28,863 nt of DNA from the IMG/VR virus record IMGVR_UViG_3300032282_004885, positions 1 through 28,863 of that record; one strand, written 5' to 3'. Within the stretch, counting starts at the first letter, position 1; every line of letters begins with the position of its first letter. The translations under genes were made by a program, and so were the position numbers. The DNA is from a virus. Under the pieces are notes generated by a model. It was not told the origin of the DNA, made no database searches, and was given only the letters and a program-made list of their open reading frames with translations. This document shows positions 847 through 27,542 of this stretch, piece after piece.

Positions 847-868
847 AAACCCGCATTTCTGCGGGTTT
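847..868 (-). terminator. Terminator after the 116-aa gene
   Basis: Nine-base stem AAACCCGCA / TGCGGGTTT with a GAAA loop on the minus strand, followed by CTTCTTTAT. It begins 7 nt after the stop codon of the 116-aa gene. On the plus strand the hairpin is followed by a longer T run, so it may work in both directions. It is almost identical to the hairpins at 1276-1295 and 1718-1739. Confidence 0.75.
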
Positions 869-874
869 TTTGTT

Positions 875-1225
875 TTAGCGTCTTCTTGCTGGTTTTGCTT
901 GCATCATACTTGATACTTTTGACAAAATTTGAGGATCTTCAACAGGTTTTGGCTTTTCTGTACGACCACTAGTATCTAAATATTTTACATACTTTTCATC
1001 GCCATGAAATAATGAAAAATTATTTCCCAATTTTTTATATATATACATTTTTCCATCTATTTTTAAAACTTGAGCGCCAGTATAACCAGCCACTCTTTTA
1101 AGATCTTTTTCTAATTTTTGTTCGTCAGATGAAACCGATACACTTATATCTGCTTCATCTACTGACATTAACTCTTCTAGTTCTTCTTTGATTATTTGTT
1201 TTAATTTATCACGTGATAGTTTCAT
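875..1225 (-). CDS. Small protein with IIKEEL N-terminal module, 116 aa
   Basis: Function unknown. The first 19 residues, MKLSRDKLKQIIKEELEEL, form a predicted amphipathic helix almost identical to the N-terminus of the neighbouring 120-aa protein, while the rest of the two proteins is unrelated. The middle (about residues 30-65) is soluble alpha/beta; the C-terminus ends A-K-P-A-R-R-R and is basic. The start is supported by GGGAG 10 nt upstream. The gene is a single transcription unit: a terminator lies on each side and the ACTATTTA candidate late-promoter motif lies 26 nt upstream. The likely late expression and the shared helix make a capsid-targeted or virion-associated protein possible; this is inference. 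No enzyme motif is visible. Confidence 0.7.
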   Translation of the reverse strand: MKLSRDKLKQIIKEELEELMSVDEADISVSVSSDEQKLEKDLKRVAGYTGAQVLKIDGKMYIYKKLGNNFSLFHGDEKYVKYLDTSGRTEKPKPVEDPQILSKVSSMMQAKPARRR

Positions 1226-1251
1226 TTATACAAATCTCCCAGTACAAACAC

Positions 1252-1259
1252 TAAATAGT
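1252..1259 (-). promoter_or_regulatory. Candidate late promoter motif ACTATTTA (116-aa gene)
   Basis: ACTATTTA on the coding strand, 26 nt before the ATG and just downstream of the terminator hairpin at 1276-1295. It is one of six exact copies found upstream of structural genes or of the two IIKEEL genes. No -35 element is seen, as expected for T4-type late promoters. Confidence 0.5.
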
Positions 1260-1275
1260 TACTTTATAAAGAAGA

Positions 1276-1295
1276 AACCCGCATTTCTGCGGGTT
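1276..1295 (-). terminator. Terminator after the 120-aa gene
   Basis: Eight-base stem AACCCGCA / TGCGGGTT with a GAAA loop on the minus strand, followed by TCTTCTTTAT. It lies 14 nt after the stop of the 120-aa gene and is nearly identical to the hairpins at 847-868 and 1718-1739. Confidence 0.75.
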
Positions 1296-1309
1296 CTTAG
1301 ATATATTAT

Positions 1310-1672
1310 TTATTTTTTCATTAATCGATTAAGTTTGTTTGCTTTGATTTTACCAAAAGCTTGAAGCATTGCAGCCTTTTTAATTATATCTGTTCCCATT
1401 TTAGAATTATTCCACAATTCTTGTTCATCTTTTTTATCCATATATTCATCGTATAATCTTTGGGATTCTGCATCAATTTGTTTTTGTTGTTCAGTTTTTT
1501 CGGATTTTTGTCCTACTGGTACTTGCGATTGTGCAGTATCTGGTCCAGTTGGAACAGCGGAGCCTGGAATCGGTTTTTCATCTCGTCCACTCGTTGGTAA
1601 GGAGATGTCCCGATAAACTTCTTCCAACTCTTCTTTTATTATCTGTCTTAATCTATCGCGTGTTAGTTTCAT
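1310..1672 (-). CDS. Small protein with IIKEEL N-terminal module, 120 aa
   Basis: Function unknown. The start is set at the ATG at 1672, not at an upstream in-frame start at 1711, because AGGAG lies 7 nt before 1672 and the protein then begins MKLTRDRLRQIIKEELEEV, matching the start of the 116-aa protein. The two 57-nt starts are similar in DNA, with mostly silent or Lys/Arg differences, so this module is homologous and under selection. The middle is Pro/Gly/Gln-rich and probably disordered (residues 20-60); the C-terminal half is helical, charged and ends in basic residues (N-R-L-M-K-K). It is flanked by terminators and preceded by the ACTATTTA motif, so it is a stand-alone, probably late gene. 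A capsid cargo role is inference. Confidence 0.7.
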   Translation of the reverse strand: MKLTRDRLRQIIKEELEEVYRDISLPTSGRDEKPIPGSAVPTGPDTAQSQVPVGQKSEKTEQQKQIDAESQRLYDEYMDKKDEQELWNNSKMGTDIIKKAAMLQAFGKIKANKLNRLMKK

Positions 1673-1695: not shown

Positions 1696-1703
1696 TAAAT
1701 AGT
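1696..1703 (-). promoter_or_regulatory. Candidate late promoter motif ACTATTTA (120-aa gene)
   Basis: ACTATTTA on the coding strand, 23 nt before the ATG at 1672 and directly downstream of the uvsX terminator. The flanks (AACTATTTAGT.TTTGTA) closely match the copy at 1252-1259, so the whole promoter region of the two small genes is repeated. Confidence 0.5.
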
Positions 1704-1717
1704 TTACTCAACAGAAG

Positions 1718-1739
1718 AAACCCGCATTTCTGCGGGTTT
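1718..1739 (-). terminator. Terminator after uvsX
   Basis: Nine-base stem AAACCCGCA / TGCGGGTTT with a GAAA loop on the minus strand, followed by CTTCTGTTG. It begins 5 nt after the uvsX stop codon. It is the third near-identical copy in 0.9 kb. Confidence 0.75.
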
Positions 1740-4378: not shown

Positions 4379-5208
4379 GTGCTTCGCGGTGGCTGGATAA
4401 ACTTTGTTCGTCCAACACAATATACAAAATTTTGTTCGTAGTTTGTTTCATACACATTAAAAGAAATTTTTAAATTTTCTTTTTGTTTTTCTTTCACTTG
4501 ATTTTTAAGTGTTTGTAACAACTTTTTTTCTTTTTTAAGAGTATTAGAATTTATAGCAAAGTAATAAACTATTTCTTCTATATTTTCCAGATCAGAAAAC
4601 CACCTTATCTCATCTCGACCTATGTCTGATAGACCATATGTTTCAATTCTGGAAATATCACTTAGTTCTATATTGTTTGTTAGTAGAGGTTTAATATTTG
4701 AATAAACATTAATATAATGAGATGTTGATGAAACAAGTTGATTGAATTTATCATCAAAATCTAAAATACTAACATTATCAAGTATACTTTCTAATTTTAC
4801 TTTATCAAAATAAACAAACTTATTAAACAAACCTGATCTTGTATATTCTTGAAGAACACTAAAAGTAATTTTATCTTGTATTTTTTCTAAATTTCCCATT
4901 AATTCTAAATCTGATCTAACATAATAAATATTTATTTTTCGATCTTTAAAATTCTGAAGAAATTTAAGAATTATTCCGCTTATTGCTTCAGAACCGTCGA
5001 TAAACACACTTATTTCTGAATTATTATCTTTGATAAATTCATTTAATTGATGCGGATAATTCTTTTCATACTCCTCTGCGTTCTTTAATTGCGGCAAATC
5101 AAAAGAAGAATTTTCAGTATTAATTGTATAAACTGAATATTGAGGATAAGAAGAAAAACTATCAACCAATTGAGAACAAAAATCACCAATTCCAACCAAA
5201 GAAATCAT
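4375..5208 (-). CDS. Unknown protein with Rossmann/FtsZ-like N-terminus, 277 aa
   Basis: Not confidently recognised. The N-terminus M-I-S-L-V-G-I-G-D-F-C-S-Q-L-V-D has the beta-strand, G-x-G turn and helix of a Rossmann-type nucleotide fold. The order of strands that follows (Y-S-V-Y-T-I-N; S-V-F-I-D-G-S-E-A-I-S-G) resembles tubulin/FtsZ-like proteins. The diagnostic GGGTGTG loop is absent, with only D-G-S-E-A-I-S-G in its place, so GTPase activity is not supported. A C-terminal helix (about 225-250) is highly charged. The gene overlaps the DNA polymerase stop by 4 nt (ATGA) and has AGGA 7 nt before its start, so the two proteins are made together and may cooperate. There is no terminator after it; the 122-aa gene promoter begins in its stop codon. 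Confidence 0.75.
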   Translation of the reverse strand: MISLVGIGDFCSQLVDSFSSYPQYSVYTINTENSSFDLPQLKNAEEYEKNYPHQLNEFIKDNNSEISVFIDGSEAISGIILKFLQNFKDRKINIYYVRSDLELMGNLEKIQDKITFSVLQEYTRSGLFNKFVYFDKVKLESILDNVSILDFDDKFNQLVSSTSHYINVYSNIKPLLTNNIELSDISRIETYGLSDIGRDEIRWFSDLENIEEIVYYFAINSNTLKKEKKLLQTLKNQVKEKQKENLKISFNVYETNYEQNFVYCVGRTKFIQPPRST

Positions 5209-6389
5209 AATATTTTCCTCATATCTCCAAGAGACTTTCCAATCTTAACAGAAGACTTAAATTTACCAAACTCAGTATCATTATAAGTATCTACAATCTG
5301 TTTTACAAGTTCTTTTTCTTCCTTTTTCATATCAATAACAATATTATCGTGAATAATCATTTTGATCTTAGACTTACAATCTTTTAGCAACTCATTTACT
5401 TTTAATACTTGTCGCAAAGCCATATCCGCCGTTGTACTTTGAACAATATAATTTACAGAATGAAATTCATCTGCGATTATTTCTCTACCATAGTGATTTT
5501 TAACTAAATTACCATCCCAGTATTTCTTTTTAATCATATCTGTATTATAATACTTCTTAAAATCTCTTTCTCTTTGGTTCTTTTTACCATACAACCAAGA
5601 AATAAAATCATTTTTAGCAGTGTTTCTATCAATATAGCCAAACTTCTCTTTGTTCCACTCATGAATATCGATTGTAGGCTGTTTAAAGCCGTTTAAAGCA
5701 AGAAATACGCGAACTTCTGCTGCGTTATAATCAATATCAAGAAAGAAATCATTATTAGGTTTAATAAATGATCTCAAATTTTTCGAAAGATTAAGAATAG
5801 GAAAACTATTTTCCTCTGTTGTTAATCTACCTGTTTTAGAACTAAATTGATTATAAGTTATATAATTGTCTTTTGATAAATAAGACTGTGCGAAATCTCG
5901 CACTTTGTTGTCGTGTAAGTTATTTTTAATAGCTACATCATCAAAAGATAATTTTTGATTACGAATTGTTGTTAATAGTATTTCTAAATCTCTTTTAAAT
6001 TCATAATCGATTGGTTTTGGATAATTTTCCAATACATAATCAATTATCTGACACTTTATATCACAAAAATCAATCAAGAATTTATTAGGAACAAGATCAT
6101 AAAAACAATTTTCTTTTAATGATACTTTTGCTTCGACAAAAGAACGAATAAATGATTTTGCTTTGCTATTCAATTCTTTCCATCGATCTTGTAAATGCTC
6201 CGGACATACTTCATCAAAGTCTTTGCCGGCAACATAAAGATTAGCATATTGGATATTTTTATTTTTTAAGTATGCTTGATATTTCCAAGTAGAAAGTAGA
6301 TCTCCACGTGGCTCTTGACCAAATAATAGTTGTCCATTATGGTAGAACCCAACACACTCAGTTTTATCGTCCAAAGCAAGAAAAGTCAT
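5205..6389 (-). CDS. Family A DNA polymerase without a recognisable exonuclease domain, 394 aa
   Basis: Template-directed DNA synthesis. Visible polymerase motifs: T-G-R-L-T-T (186-191); motif A D-Y-N-A-A-E-V-R (220-227, catalytic Asp220); O-helix-like motif B R-x3-K (R255, K259) ending L-Y-G (266-268), with Ile where Klenow has Phe762; G-R-E-I (301-304); Q-S-T-T-A-D-M (317-323); motif C H-D-N (347-349), where most family members have H-D-E. At 394 aa it is much shorter than Pol I (928) or T7 polymerase (704), and the N-terminal 180 residues show no clear 3'-5' exonuclease motifs. T4 itself uses a family B enzyme (gp43), so a family A enzyme here is notable. It could be the main replicase or an accessory repair polymerase. 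It is coupled to the downstream 277-aa gene, and its promoter abuts the start codon. Confidence 0.9.
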   Translation of the reverse strand: MTFLALDDKTECVGFYHNGQLLFGQEPRGDLLSTWKYQAYLKNKNIQYANLYVAGKDFDEVCPEHLQDRWKELNSKAKSFIRSFVEAKVSLKENCFYDLVPNKFLIDFCDIKCQIIDYVLENYPKPIDYEFKRDLEILLTTIRNQKLSFDDVAIKNNLHDNKVRDFAQSYLSKDNYITYNQFSSKTGRLTTEENSFPILNLSKNLRSFIKPNNDFFLDIDYNAAEVRVFLALNGFKQPTIDIHEWNKEKFGYIDRNTAKNDFISWLYGKKNQRERDFKKYYNTDMIKKKYWDGNLVKNHYGREIIADEFHSVNYIVQSTTADMALRQVLKVNELLKDCKSKIKMIIHDNIVIDMKKEEKELVKQIVDTYNDTEFGKFKSSVKIGKSLGDMRKIL

Positions 6390-18611: not shown

Positions 18612-18619
18612 TAAATAGT
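18612..18619 (-). promoter_or_regulatory. Candidate late promoter motif ACTATTTA (sheath gene)
   Basis: ACTATTTA on the coding strand (context CTTACTATTTACC), 35 nt before the sheath ATG and downstream of the gp15-type gene's promoterless border region. Same motif as five other sites in the window. Confidence 0.5.
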
Positions 18620-21681: not shown

Positions 21682-21689
21682 TAAATAGT
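21682..21689 (-). promoter_or_regulatory. Candidate late promoter motif ACTATTTA (neck operon)
   Basis: ACTATTTA on the coding strand (context ATACTATTTATAAAG), 32 nt before the 438-aa gene and just after the terminator at 21719-21744. Read on the plus strand this copy includes TATAAATA, the T4 late consensus, but in the direction away from the gene. Confidence 0.5.
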
Positions 21690-22483: not shown

Positions 22484-22491
22484 TAAATAGT
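22484..22491 (-). promoter_or_regulatory. Candidate late promoter motif ACTATTTA (222-aa gene)
   Basis: ACTATTTA on the coding strand (context ATACTATTTATATAAAAAG), 50 nt before the ATG and just after the terminator at 22513-22536. A short inverted repeat AAGAACT / AGTTCTT (22461-22477) lies between it and the gene, in the predicted leader. Confidence 0.5.
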
Positions 22492-24445: not shown

Positions 24446-26143
24446 TCAGCCGAGTAGATCTTGTACGACAACGAGGCCGTAAAGATCTGGGCGTACCATC
24501 TTCTTGGCGTAGCGGGTCATAACACCCTTACGTGGTACGAAATCTTCAGTACCAAAGATGGTTGGTGTAACCTGGAGTGGGACGTATGGAGCATATACGA
24601 ATCCACTTTCGAGGAAGCTACTGCCCTTACGACCTACAAGAACAACGTTACGTGGGAAGTATGGATCAACGAATACATCCCATTTCTTACTTAGTGAACC
24701 GGCTTTGACTGCGCCGATTGTACCCTTGGCGTCATCATGGACTACGTTTGCACGGAAGCCACTTGTGAATTCAAGGATATTGGCTACTTCTGGTCCGCAA
24801 ACAACGAAGTTTGCACCACCACGAAGAGTCTTACGGTGGATTGCAGCACTTACATCGTTGATGGTTTCAACGAGGGTTTCGTACCACATACTAACATTAC
24901 CGGTGAAGTCAGCACCATTTAGATCGGCAACACCACTGGCAATTGGTTGACCGGTTGTACGCTCAACGAATTTACCTGGACGGCGTGACCAATATAGTGT
25001 TGCAGCGGTTGCACCACGGACAAGTTCACCTAACATTTCTTGGTCGATTTCTAGACCAATTTGTTCTGATAGGATACTTGTGAGTTCAACTTCGGCATCA
25101 AGATTGTGATAAGCATTTAGATCTTGACCGAGTTCTGGTGTCCACTTAGCTTTGAGCTTGCGTGTTTTAGCAGTTACAGCAACACTGTCAACTTTGATGT
25201 CAATTTCTGGAATGTTTGATTCACCTTCAAGAGTGATTGACTGATTGACGCCTAGATCAATACCAGCTGGTACAACAGCACCGATGGTACTTGAATTAGT
25301 TAGTTCGTCTTTAATTGGCCAACTTACTGTGACAGCACTACCGGTGACGGTTGCTGCAAGGGTGGCTGGGTTAGTTACTGCTGGATCGTTGAATGCAAGT
25401 AATAGAACGTTCTTTGTTGAACCACTATACTGTGTTAAGCGACGAACTTGAACATCACGTTGACCATTTGTGCCTGAAACTGAAATAACAATTAAGTTTT
25501 CACGATCAAGGCGATTTAGTAGTGTTGCACTTTCAGTTACGGCACAAACAACTACGGCTGAACCTGATACGAGATCTGGATCAAAACGTACTAGTTTATC
25601 AAGAGCAGTATTACCACCAACTGTACCTGAAAGTAGAGCTGTTAATGTTTCTGATTTTGAACCAGTTGGAAGTGAGTAACCGTTGTTTAATGCGCGAAGT
25701 GAATTTTCAGCATTAACACCTGAGAGACTTACACCGCCGGTTAATTGTGAAGCAACAACGCCACCACCGAATAGTGATTTGCCTTGTAGATTTGCACCAC
25801 GATCACGTTCGAATGTGAAGTCGAGGAAGAAGATTAGACCGCTTGGTAAACTCATTGGTTGTACACTAACGAGTTCATTCGCAATTAGTGAACCGAATAC
25901 ACGGCGTACTATTGGGAACGCAACGGCAGCAAAGCCTTCAACATCACCTCCTGACATTGTGTTGGCTTCACGAAGTAATTCCTGAGCCTGATTTTCTAAT
26001 AGACGGGCCATTGAAGCCTTGGCGCGGTCATCACCAATACCTTCTAATAGACCTGTATCTGACCATTTACTCATTAATGCGCCACCTTCTTTTTCGAGGT
26101 CACGCTTAACCACACCTTCTGTTAATTTTTTAATAACTGACAT
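24446..26143 (-). CDS. 23: Major capsid protein (gp23-type), 565 aa
   Basis: The main shell protein of the head. The start pattern K-W-S-D-T-G-L-L-E-G-I, then A-R-L-L-E-N-Q (46-52), and V-S-V-Q-P-M-S-L-P-S-G-L-I-F-F-L-D-F (92-109) match gp23 (T4: C-G-V-Q-P-M-N-S-P-T-G). T4 gp23 loses its N-terminal 65 residues to the prohead protease at a (L/I)-x-E site; here L-R-E (57-59) before Ala60 is a good equivalent. The length is near T4's 521. The start has AGGAG 8 nt upstream. It lies 28 nt after the prohead core gene, and a strong terminator follows, so it is probably the most abundant late mRNA. Composition is less AT-rich than the accessory genes. Confidence 0.95.
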   Translation of the reverse strand: MSVIKKLTEGVVKRDLEKEGGALMSKWSDTGLLEGIGDDRAKASMARLLENQAQELLREANTMSGGDVEGFAAVAFPIVRRVFGSLIANELVSVQPMSLPSGLIFFLDFTFERDRGANLQGKSLFGGGVVASQLTGGVSLSGVNAENSLRALNNGYSLPTGSKSETLTALLSGTVGGNTALDKLVRFDPDLVSGSAVVVCAVTESATLLNRLDRENLIVISVSGTNGQRDVQVRRLTQYSGSTKNVLLLAFNDPAVTNPATLAATVTGSAVTVSWPIKDELTNSSTIGAVVPAGIDLGVNQSITLEGESNIPEIDIKVDSVAVTAKTRKLKAKWTPELGQDLNAYHNLDAEVELTSILSEQIGLEIDQEMLGELVRGATAATLYWSRRPGKFVERTTGQPIASGVADLNGADFTGNVSMWYETLVETINDVSAAIHRKTLRGGANFVVCGPEVANILEFTSGFRANVVHDDAKGTIGAVKAGSLSKKWDVFVDPYFPRNVVLVGRKGSSFLESGFVYAPYVPLQVTPTIFGTEDFVPRKGVMTRYAKKMVRPDLYGLVVVQDLLG

Positions 26144-26171: not shown

Positions 26172-27500
26172 TTATTTAATACCGGCTAATTTTAACCAAC
26201 GATCTTTATTTGGATCGTTTGGCTGTTCTGTTTGTTTGTGAGGCAGACGGAATGAACTCTTTTTACTAATAGCTTCATTCAGTGATTTTGGTACACGTTC
26301 TTCTCTTTGAGAACCACCCACCGAATTGATTAGTGTTTCATAAACCGTTTTTGCTTCACTGACGGAATCAGCCTTGGAAATAGCTTCGACAATATTTATT
26401 TTTTGTCGCTCATTCAAGGAGGCGCTTTTCAAGACCTGATTTTCGTAAAAGAGACGTGCATTTAAAGTATTAACTTCTTCAAGTTTCTTAAATGCGACTG
26501 ACATATCTTCTACTGTGGAAGACAACTTATTGTTTTCTTCCAAGAGTTTTTGAATTCTTGCATCTTTCTTTTCTATTAATTTCATGGAATTTTGATGTTC
26601 TTTTAATAATTGTGCAGATGCTTGCAACAATTGTTTTGTTTTTGATTCGTTTGTTTTTTCTTTGTGTTTTTTTATTGCGGCTTGAGTTGCTTTGCCGCGT
26701 GTTTTTTCATATGGTGTAAGTATACCGTCACCGTCTAGATCTGCTTTTTCTTTATCTAATTCTTCATCTTCTTCGTCTTCTTCGTTTTCTTCTTCATCGT
26801 CTTCGTCGGATTCTTCTTCATCGTCTTCGTCGGATTCTTCTTCATCTTCCGATTCTTCGTCTTCGTCTTCTTCTTTTTCTTCTGAGAGAACTTCGTCTAA
26901 ACTAACTTCCGTTAGTTCATCTTCTTCTAAAGTCATATTTGTATCACCTTGCGGACCTGCAAAATCTTCATCCATTTCTTCATCTAATAAATCTTCATCT
27001 AATTCAATTGATTCCATCATTGGTGATGGTCCACCAGCACCACCAGAAGCAGGAGGTTGATTCATCATACCGGTCATTTGTGGAGACATATCTGTTTCTT
27101 CTTCTTTATCACCTATTTGTAGTGCATCAGCAAGATCAGCAAGATTTATATTTACTTCAACTTCTTCATCGTCATCTGGACATGGGCATAATTTTTCACC
27201 ATCAGTAGCAGCTAAAGGTATATCTTTTGCTGCACCAGCAACATAACCTTTATTTGATTCATCTGGAGGAGCACCGCCAAAATCTGTTAGAGGAGCATTA
27301 GAATCGCCACCAGCTAAAGCATCACTTGGAGAAGGAGTATCGGCTCCTGGTTCTTCGTCTTGTTCTAGTAATTTTTCCACCGCTTCTTTAACTTGTGGAG
27401 CAAATTTTTCTAACAAAGTTGCTTGTGCGCTTTTAAAGGCTGAATCTCTTAGGGCTTGAGCATCTACTATGGCTTGCTCTAATAGTTTTGAACTACTCAT
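26172..27500 (-). CDS. 22: Prohead core (scaffold) protein, gp22-like, with an EF-hand loop, 442 aa
   Basis: Directly upstream of gene 23, as gene 22 is in T4, and therefore the internal scaffold on which the capsid forms. The start is placed at the ATG at 27500 (AGGAG 8 nt upstream) rather than at the upstream TTG at 27533. Order: helical N-terminus (1-50), Pro/Gly-rich linker (50-165), an acidic low-complexity stretch (165-250, with an E-E-S-D-E-D-D-E repeat), an EF-hand calcium loop D-L-D-G-D-G-I-L-T-P-Y-E (254-265), a coiled coil (about 280-360), and the gp22-like tail with N-E-R-Q-K-I-N-I-V-E-A (363-373) and E-A-K-T-V-Y-E-T-L (382-390). It ends R-W-L-K-L-A-G-I-K. It is longer than T4 gp22 (269). 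The EF loop and acidic block may combine functions of T4's acidic core proteins gp67/gp68; this is inference. Confidence 0.8.
   Translation of the reverse strand: MSSSKLLEQAIVDAQALRDSAFKSAQATLLEKFAPQVKEAVEKLLEQDEEPGADTPSPSDALAGGDSNAPLTDFGGAPPDESNKGYVAGAAKDIPLAATDGEKLCPCPDDDEEVEVNINLADLADALQIGDKEEETDMSPQMTGMMNQPPASGGAGGPSPMMESIELDEDLLDEEMDEDFAGPQGDTNMTLEEDELTEVSLDEVLSEEKEEDEDEESEDEEESDEDDEEESDEDDEEENEEDEEDEELDKEKADLDGDGILTPYEKTRGKATQAAIKKHKEKTNESKTKQLLQASAQLLKEHQNSMKLIEKKDARIQKLLEENNKLSSTVEDMSVAFKKLEEVNTLNARLFYENQVLKSASLNERQKINIVEAISKADSVSEAKTVYETLINSVGGSQREERVPKSLNEAISKKSSFRLPHKQTEQPNDPNKDRWLKLAGIK
26790..26850 (-). repeat. 24-nt repeat coding for the acidic tract of the prohead core protein
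   Basis: About two and a half copies of a 24-nt unit (TCTTCATCGTCTTCGTCGGA type on the plus strand) encoding E-E-S-D-E-D-D-E. It is likely to change length by slippage or recombination. Confidence 0.75.
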
Positions 27501-27534: not shown

Positions 27535-27542
27535 TAAATAGT
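27535..27542 (-). promoter_or_regulatory. Candidate late promoter motif ACTATTTA (prohead core/capsid operon)
   Basis: ACTATTTA on the coding strand (context AAAACTATTTAATTG), 34 nt before the ATG at 27500. It would drive the gp22-gp23 pair. Confidence 0.5.

Follow-up and report, generated by a model that had tools for sequence, protein, structure and literature searches.

A short N-terminal module on many unrelated small proteins of distant T4 relatives: a putative capsid-targeting sequence

Why should two neighbouring phage genes, whose small products are otherwise unlike, open with almost the same N-terminal helix? The question arises in a 28,863-bp stretch of DNA (hereafter the window, the entire IMG/VR record IMGVR_UViG_3300032282_004885) that is, judging from its gene content, a piece of a distant T4 relative's genome. 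Pfam, PHROGs and phmmer searches identify a Gp23-type capsid protein, a gp22-like scaffold, a contractile sheath, and gp32-like and UvsX-like proteins. The major capsid protein (24446..26143, minus strand) reads LLRE/ANTMSGGD where the T4 cleavage site sits, the corresponding cut in T4 gp23 being FLTE/AEIGGD (cuts marked by a slash), and the scaffold protein (26172..27500, minus strand), which begins MSSSKLLEQAIVDAQALRD, belongs to a phmmer family shared with the protein in the scaffold position of the related phages described below. The record stops short of the expected gp21 position. Our two genes lie outside the head operon, flanked by uvsX and a dCMP deaminase gene. Elsewhere in the window (5205-6389, minus strand) a 394-aa protein resembles just the C-terminal portion of family A DNA polymerases, possibly one half of a split polymerase.

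The first gene (875..1225, minus strand) encodes a 116-aa protein that consists, by ORF calling and Pfam, PHROGs and IMG/VR searches, of the helix at residues 1-19 (MKLSRDKLKQIIKEELEEL, encoded at 1169..1225, minus strand) and an orphan body; the second (1310..1672, minus strand, with its ATG at 1672) encodes a 120-aa protein built the same way, its helix (MKLTRDRLRQIIKEELEEV) encoded at 1616..1672, minus strand. The initial annotation had described near-identical N-termini on otherwise different proteins, with DNA differences that are mostly silent or conservative, and both statements stand: 15 of the 19 residues are identical and the other 4 conservatively replaced, and the 12 nucleotide differences between the 57-nt modules amount to 6 silent and 4 replacement codons (S/T, K/R, K/R, L/V). 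The bodies gave nothing significant in Pfam or PHROGs and had no IMG/VR relatives outside the helix. A profile of the shared segment, which we call module A, matches exactly two places in the window (E 3e-13 and 3e-11); the likeness is therefore not due to chance. A single-sequence AlphaFold model of the 116-aa protein places a helix at residues 5-19 followed by a beta-rich body, at a low confidence (pLDDT 58.6) that is too weak for fold comparison.

Both genes are preceded, as had been noted, by a putative late promoter element, ACTATTTA, at 1252..1259 (116-aa gene) and 1696..1703 (120-aa gene), both on the minus strand. The same element occurs on the minus strand ahead of the genes for the scaffold (27535..27542), the tail sheath (18612..18619), a 438-aa protein (21682..21689) and a 222-aa protein (22484..22491), making six minus-strand copies in the window, all 29-58 nt upstream of minus-strand genes; the two plus-strand copies are both intragenic. 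A 20-nt terminator-like hairpin, AACCCGCAGAAATGCGGGTT, is found in three identical copies, the only ones in the window, located between uvsX and the 120-aa gene (1719..1738), between the 120-aa and 116-aa genes (1276..1295) and after the 116-aa gene (848..867), all on the minus strand. These hairpins bracket both genes, each of which therefore forms a promoter-gene-terminator cassette.

Module A, with the consensus MKITKxxLKQIIKEELxxVLxE, is widespread in IMG/VR. A search of the rest of the genome and its relatives had been proposed, and we scanned IMG/VR with a DNA pattern for M-K-[ILF]-[ST]-x3-L-[KR]-[QE]-I-I-K-E-E, which matched at least 119 loci and at least 172 proteins; the same codons in scrambled order gave no match in IMG/VR. 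In cellular genomes (257 Gb, one genome each for 84,980 species) there was a single match, on a contig that also bears three genes with a second N-terminal module (module B, below) and is probably viral. Among the matches listed, Met stands exactly at position 1 in 234 of 257 motif occurrences, most others following a GTG, and the codons for the fixed residues vary between loci. A profile search of records among these matches found between 1 and 29 copies per record, with 15 in LR756508 (484 kb). The highest number seen, 29, is on an 83-kb contig, G032 (tiles L176-L180), in which no T4 head gene was found and which is probably a fragment. With the module removed, 317 bodies among the matches listed fall into approximately 265 clusters, and 146 representative proteins match just 5 Pfam families and 11 PHROGs (a polynucleotide-kinase-like protein is among the cargo); the cargo of module A is thus hypervariable and mostly without known family. 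Among phage isolates, tblastn found module A in LR756508 only, and the profile adds Flavobacterium phage immuto, with one clear copy (gp080) upstream of terminase, and finds nothing in T4, the four cyanophages searched (syn9, S-SSM7, P-HM2 and S-SKS1), Astolliot or RM378. Literature searches with the module A and B peptide strings found no relevant paper, those on capsid-targeting sequences (CTS) in marine T4 relatives returned only reviews and T4 work, and no virion proteome of a module A carrier was found.

The phages that carry the module have much in common. Among the matches listed, Gp23 occurs in 22 of 36 larger carrier contigs versus 1 of 24 control contigs chosen by a neutral 16-mer (Fisher p 6e-6), and a gp21-type S77 protease in 23 of 35 carriers; five carriers without Gp23 have a T4-type portal, none of 25 has an HK97 capsid, and of the 34 carriers between 16 and 150 kb in length about 9 show no T4 head gene, possibly as a result of being fragments. 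Module A is absent from all 24 controls. Module A thus marks what by gene content is a clade of distant relatives of T4, most of them uncultured.

Within these genomes the module has a preferred place, for the most part a short way upstream of the head operon. In carriers, terminase and portal are followed by small genes, gp21, one more small gene, structural genes, scaffold and capsid, and 19 of the 22 genomes with gp21 have a module A copy between -16 and +2 kb of gp21, against 6.2 expected from circular shifts in which clusters stay intact (none of 4000 shifts as high), in a test that overstates independence since the 22 genomes are related. We preferred circular shifts because a plain 10-kb count around gp21 is weak when copies are many. 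A copy lies within 1 kb of gp21 in 6 of the 22 (1.3 expected), the region from +2 to +20 kb downstream is depleted (1 of 22, 5.6 expected), and 126 of 127 copies are on the gp21 strand. Directly behind or near gp21 there is also a conserved protein of approximately 140 aa (L194:10791-11222, with orthologues in about 33 loci), with no Pfam family and the consensus MKKSELKxLIKPLVKECIxEVLIEEGLLS, which is a candidate prohead core protein and a possible receptor. Its resemblance to module A was set aside as evidence, since just one orthologue (11.9 bits) beats shuffled controls.

Many module A helices are followed by a sequence resembling the cleavage site of the head protease. Only residues 1-15 are fixed by the search pattern, which leaves the later ones free. 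Among the matches listed, 68 of 157 proteins with different bodies contain [LIVMF]xE[AGS] within residues 16-32, where 2000 shuffles gave a mean of 20.9 and a maximum of 37. Where a hydrophobic-x-Glu falls at residues 18-22, 49% of the P1' residues are A, G or S (p 1e-8); the share is 18% further along the proteins and 19% where P3 is non-hydrophobic. In most capsid proteins of these phages, LLRE/A or LLRE/S occupies the position of the T4 FLTE/A cut, and this resemblance to the sites behind the helix makes the protease specificity fit. The site is not universal: a strict one is missing after the helix in more than half of the module A proteins among the matches listed. The two window proteins are included here, in agreement with an earlier caveat that no perfect [LI]xE[AGS] directly follows their helices; the 116-aa protein has a non-strict V-D-E-A at residues 22-25 and the 120-aa protein has none.

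Module A is not the only such N-terminus. Module B, first noticed as MKLLLENWRKFLNE within one genome's head operon, has the N-terminal pattern MKLL[LM]ENWR-x-[FY]LNE (consensus MKLLxENWRKFLNE) and is as widespread as A, with at least 120 loci (examples are L057:1985-2215 on the plus strand, L196:9582-9812 and L225-L333); among the matches listed it heads more than 160 proteins in 99 body clusters. In phage isolates, tblastn with module B gave a single weak irrelevant match. Its bodies include NUDIX, Zeta-toxin-like kinase, GNAT, HAD, M23 peptidase and amidase proteins, recognisable enzymes being commoner with B than with A. Its P1' is not clearly A, G or S, a comparison that is not a fair one because the B pattern itself fixes the Glu. 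The two modules differ in sequence, yet both are N-terminal and widespread and occur on the same cargo families: seven body clusters among the matches listed mix A and B tags, as in L104 (A) and L057 (B), which are 76% identical over 54 aa of body. From such swaps the two read as interchangeable. A cargo with a PHHMTI motif like that of 2H phosphoesterases occurs once with A and once with B, in L089 (165 aa, minus strand) and L246 (minus strand); known anti-CBASS enzymes have a fold of this kind.

Gene pairs alike in their first 16 residues and unlike in body were also sought blindly. This search, which as a positive control put ipII/ipIII first among the pairs of the T4 stretches searched, found two further shared N-termini in immuto (gp076/gp003 and gp083/gp230), MKKQILSEQFRRMQKLAGIITES and MENFDLKKFLVEN / MENFDLKKFLVENKLT, each on unrelated bodies and both with an [LI]xE ending (L456:1676-2140, L457:25061-25456, L456:8633-8932 and L457:1803-2318), and another, MKKLLTEWRKFLKE, in one carrier genome.

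The nearest known parallel is the CTS of T4, which was established by experiment. The internal proteins of T4, a highly diverse set in which only this sequence is conserved, enter the scaffolding core by means of it (PMC3012670); propeptides of 10-20 residues are taken off by the protease (PMC5694885). The T4 CTS (ipII and ipIII: MKTYQEFIAEA) and module A are both short N-terminal peptides on unrelated small proteins, encoded by tandem genes, in phages with Gp23 and gp21; a gp21-type site stands at the end of the T4 peptide and of part of the module A family. As in the window pair, the ipII and ipIII genes are in tandem, have unrelated bodies and lie away from the head operon. The two peptides have no alignable sequence, however, and module A is longer (approximately 20-23 residues up to the site), rich in K and E, built around an Ile-Ile core, borne by many more cargos and not universally followed by a cleavage site, whereas module B is nearer in look to the T4 sequence (FLNE versus FIAE). 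Because of this lack of likeness we class module A as CTS-like by analogy and do not place it in the T4 CTS family. A second parallel is offered by the propeptides of phiKZ-like ejection proteins (SPN3US gp53, gp54 and others), which are likewise N-terminal and prohead-targeting, are alike between diverged proteins and are removed by the prohead protease (PMC5694885); unlike module A, they mostly exceed 100 residues and belong to another phage group and another protease specificity.

By analogy with T4, we read module A as a putative N-terminal CTS of a distant T4-relative clade, serving to package its cargo, and put the probability of this reading at roughly 0.7. It is supported because of the enrichment of sites after the helix, the place of the genes, the interchange of A and B and the shared ACTATTTA. 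The suggestion of capsid targeting in the initial annotation has thus gained support, short of demonstration, from the Gp23 and S77 carriers, the site enrichment, the proximity to the head operon, the variable cargo, the tag swap and the ipII/ipIII-like layout. Late in infection, the phage would make several small unrelated proteins sharing one amphipathic helix, which would dock on the core of the growing prohead, on the scaffold and the core proteins associated with it, and so enclose the cargo. In many cases a gp21-type protease would then cut at [LI]xE/[AGS] after the helix, and the freed cargo would stay with the DNA and probably enter the next host, as do T4 IPI-IPIII and Alt. Enzymes among the cargo could be injected or could be active in the cell.

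That last point leads to a reading in which the helix works in the infected cell, attaching its cargo to a complex of the host or the phage (RNA polymerase, the membrane, a replication site) or setting its turnover, with no packaging at all. Part of the cargo does look enzymatic, and the window genes have uvsX and the dCMP deaminase gene as neighbours; their position behind uvsX is no objection to packaging, however, because T4 ipII and ipIII also lie outside the head operon. We consider a role confined to the infected cell unlikely, since it predicts neither a gp21-type site, nor the tie to Gp23 and S77, nor a cluster upstream of the head operon.

The helix may also be a virion tag that directs its cargo to a part other than the head core, such as the portal or neck, the tail tube or the baseplate, or a binding tag for an assembly factor encoded by the phage. 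A late-type promoter and a place beside structural genes would suit any late virion protein. Against both, the sites that follow the helix are of the head-protease type, and the copies lie by gp21 and upstream of terminase and portal, not in the tail block (1 of 22 genomes at +2 to +20 kb), and we think it quite improbable.

There is only a very slim chance that the window likeness is a functionless recent duplication of a promoter-RBS-start cassette onto different bodies, which is refuted as a full account by the IMG/VR spread and the scrambled control, the same peptide in other codons starting hundreds of proteins in other phages and the changes within the pair being mostly silent or conservative. 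Such an event may nevertheless describe the origin of the pair, which looks like a duplicated 5' cassette as well, because its DNA similarity covers, besides the module (83%), a 30-nt promoter/RBS stretch (87%) and the flanking hairpin, all repeated at a spacing of approximately 444-447 nt.

Taking module A as a capsid-targeting sequence, a broader proposition follows the same lines and has, we think, slightly better than even odds: uncultured T4 relatives may mark hundreds of unrelated protein families for loading into the head, and for injection, with a small code of N-terminal tags that can replace one another (A, B and others confined to single lineages). The proteins that phages inject besides DNA are known for very few phages, and cargo of this kind outpaces homology searches; with a conserved address tag, candidate injected proteins could be listed from sequence alone. 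The present analysis provides approximately 357 cargo clusters among the matches listed, 295 of them singletons and nearly all without known family. Because IPI*, one of the internal proteins of T4, blocks a restriction enzyme (PMC3012670), lists of this kind would lead directly to counter-defence proteins. The tags could also help to pack proteins of choice into phage heads. If the code is real, the tag alone would allow lists of injected host-takeover and counter-defence proteins to be read directly from metagenomes.
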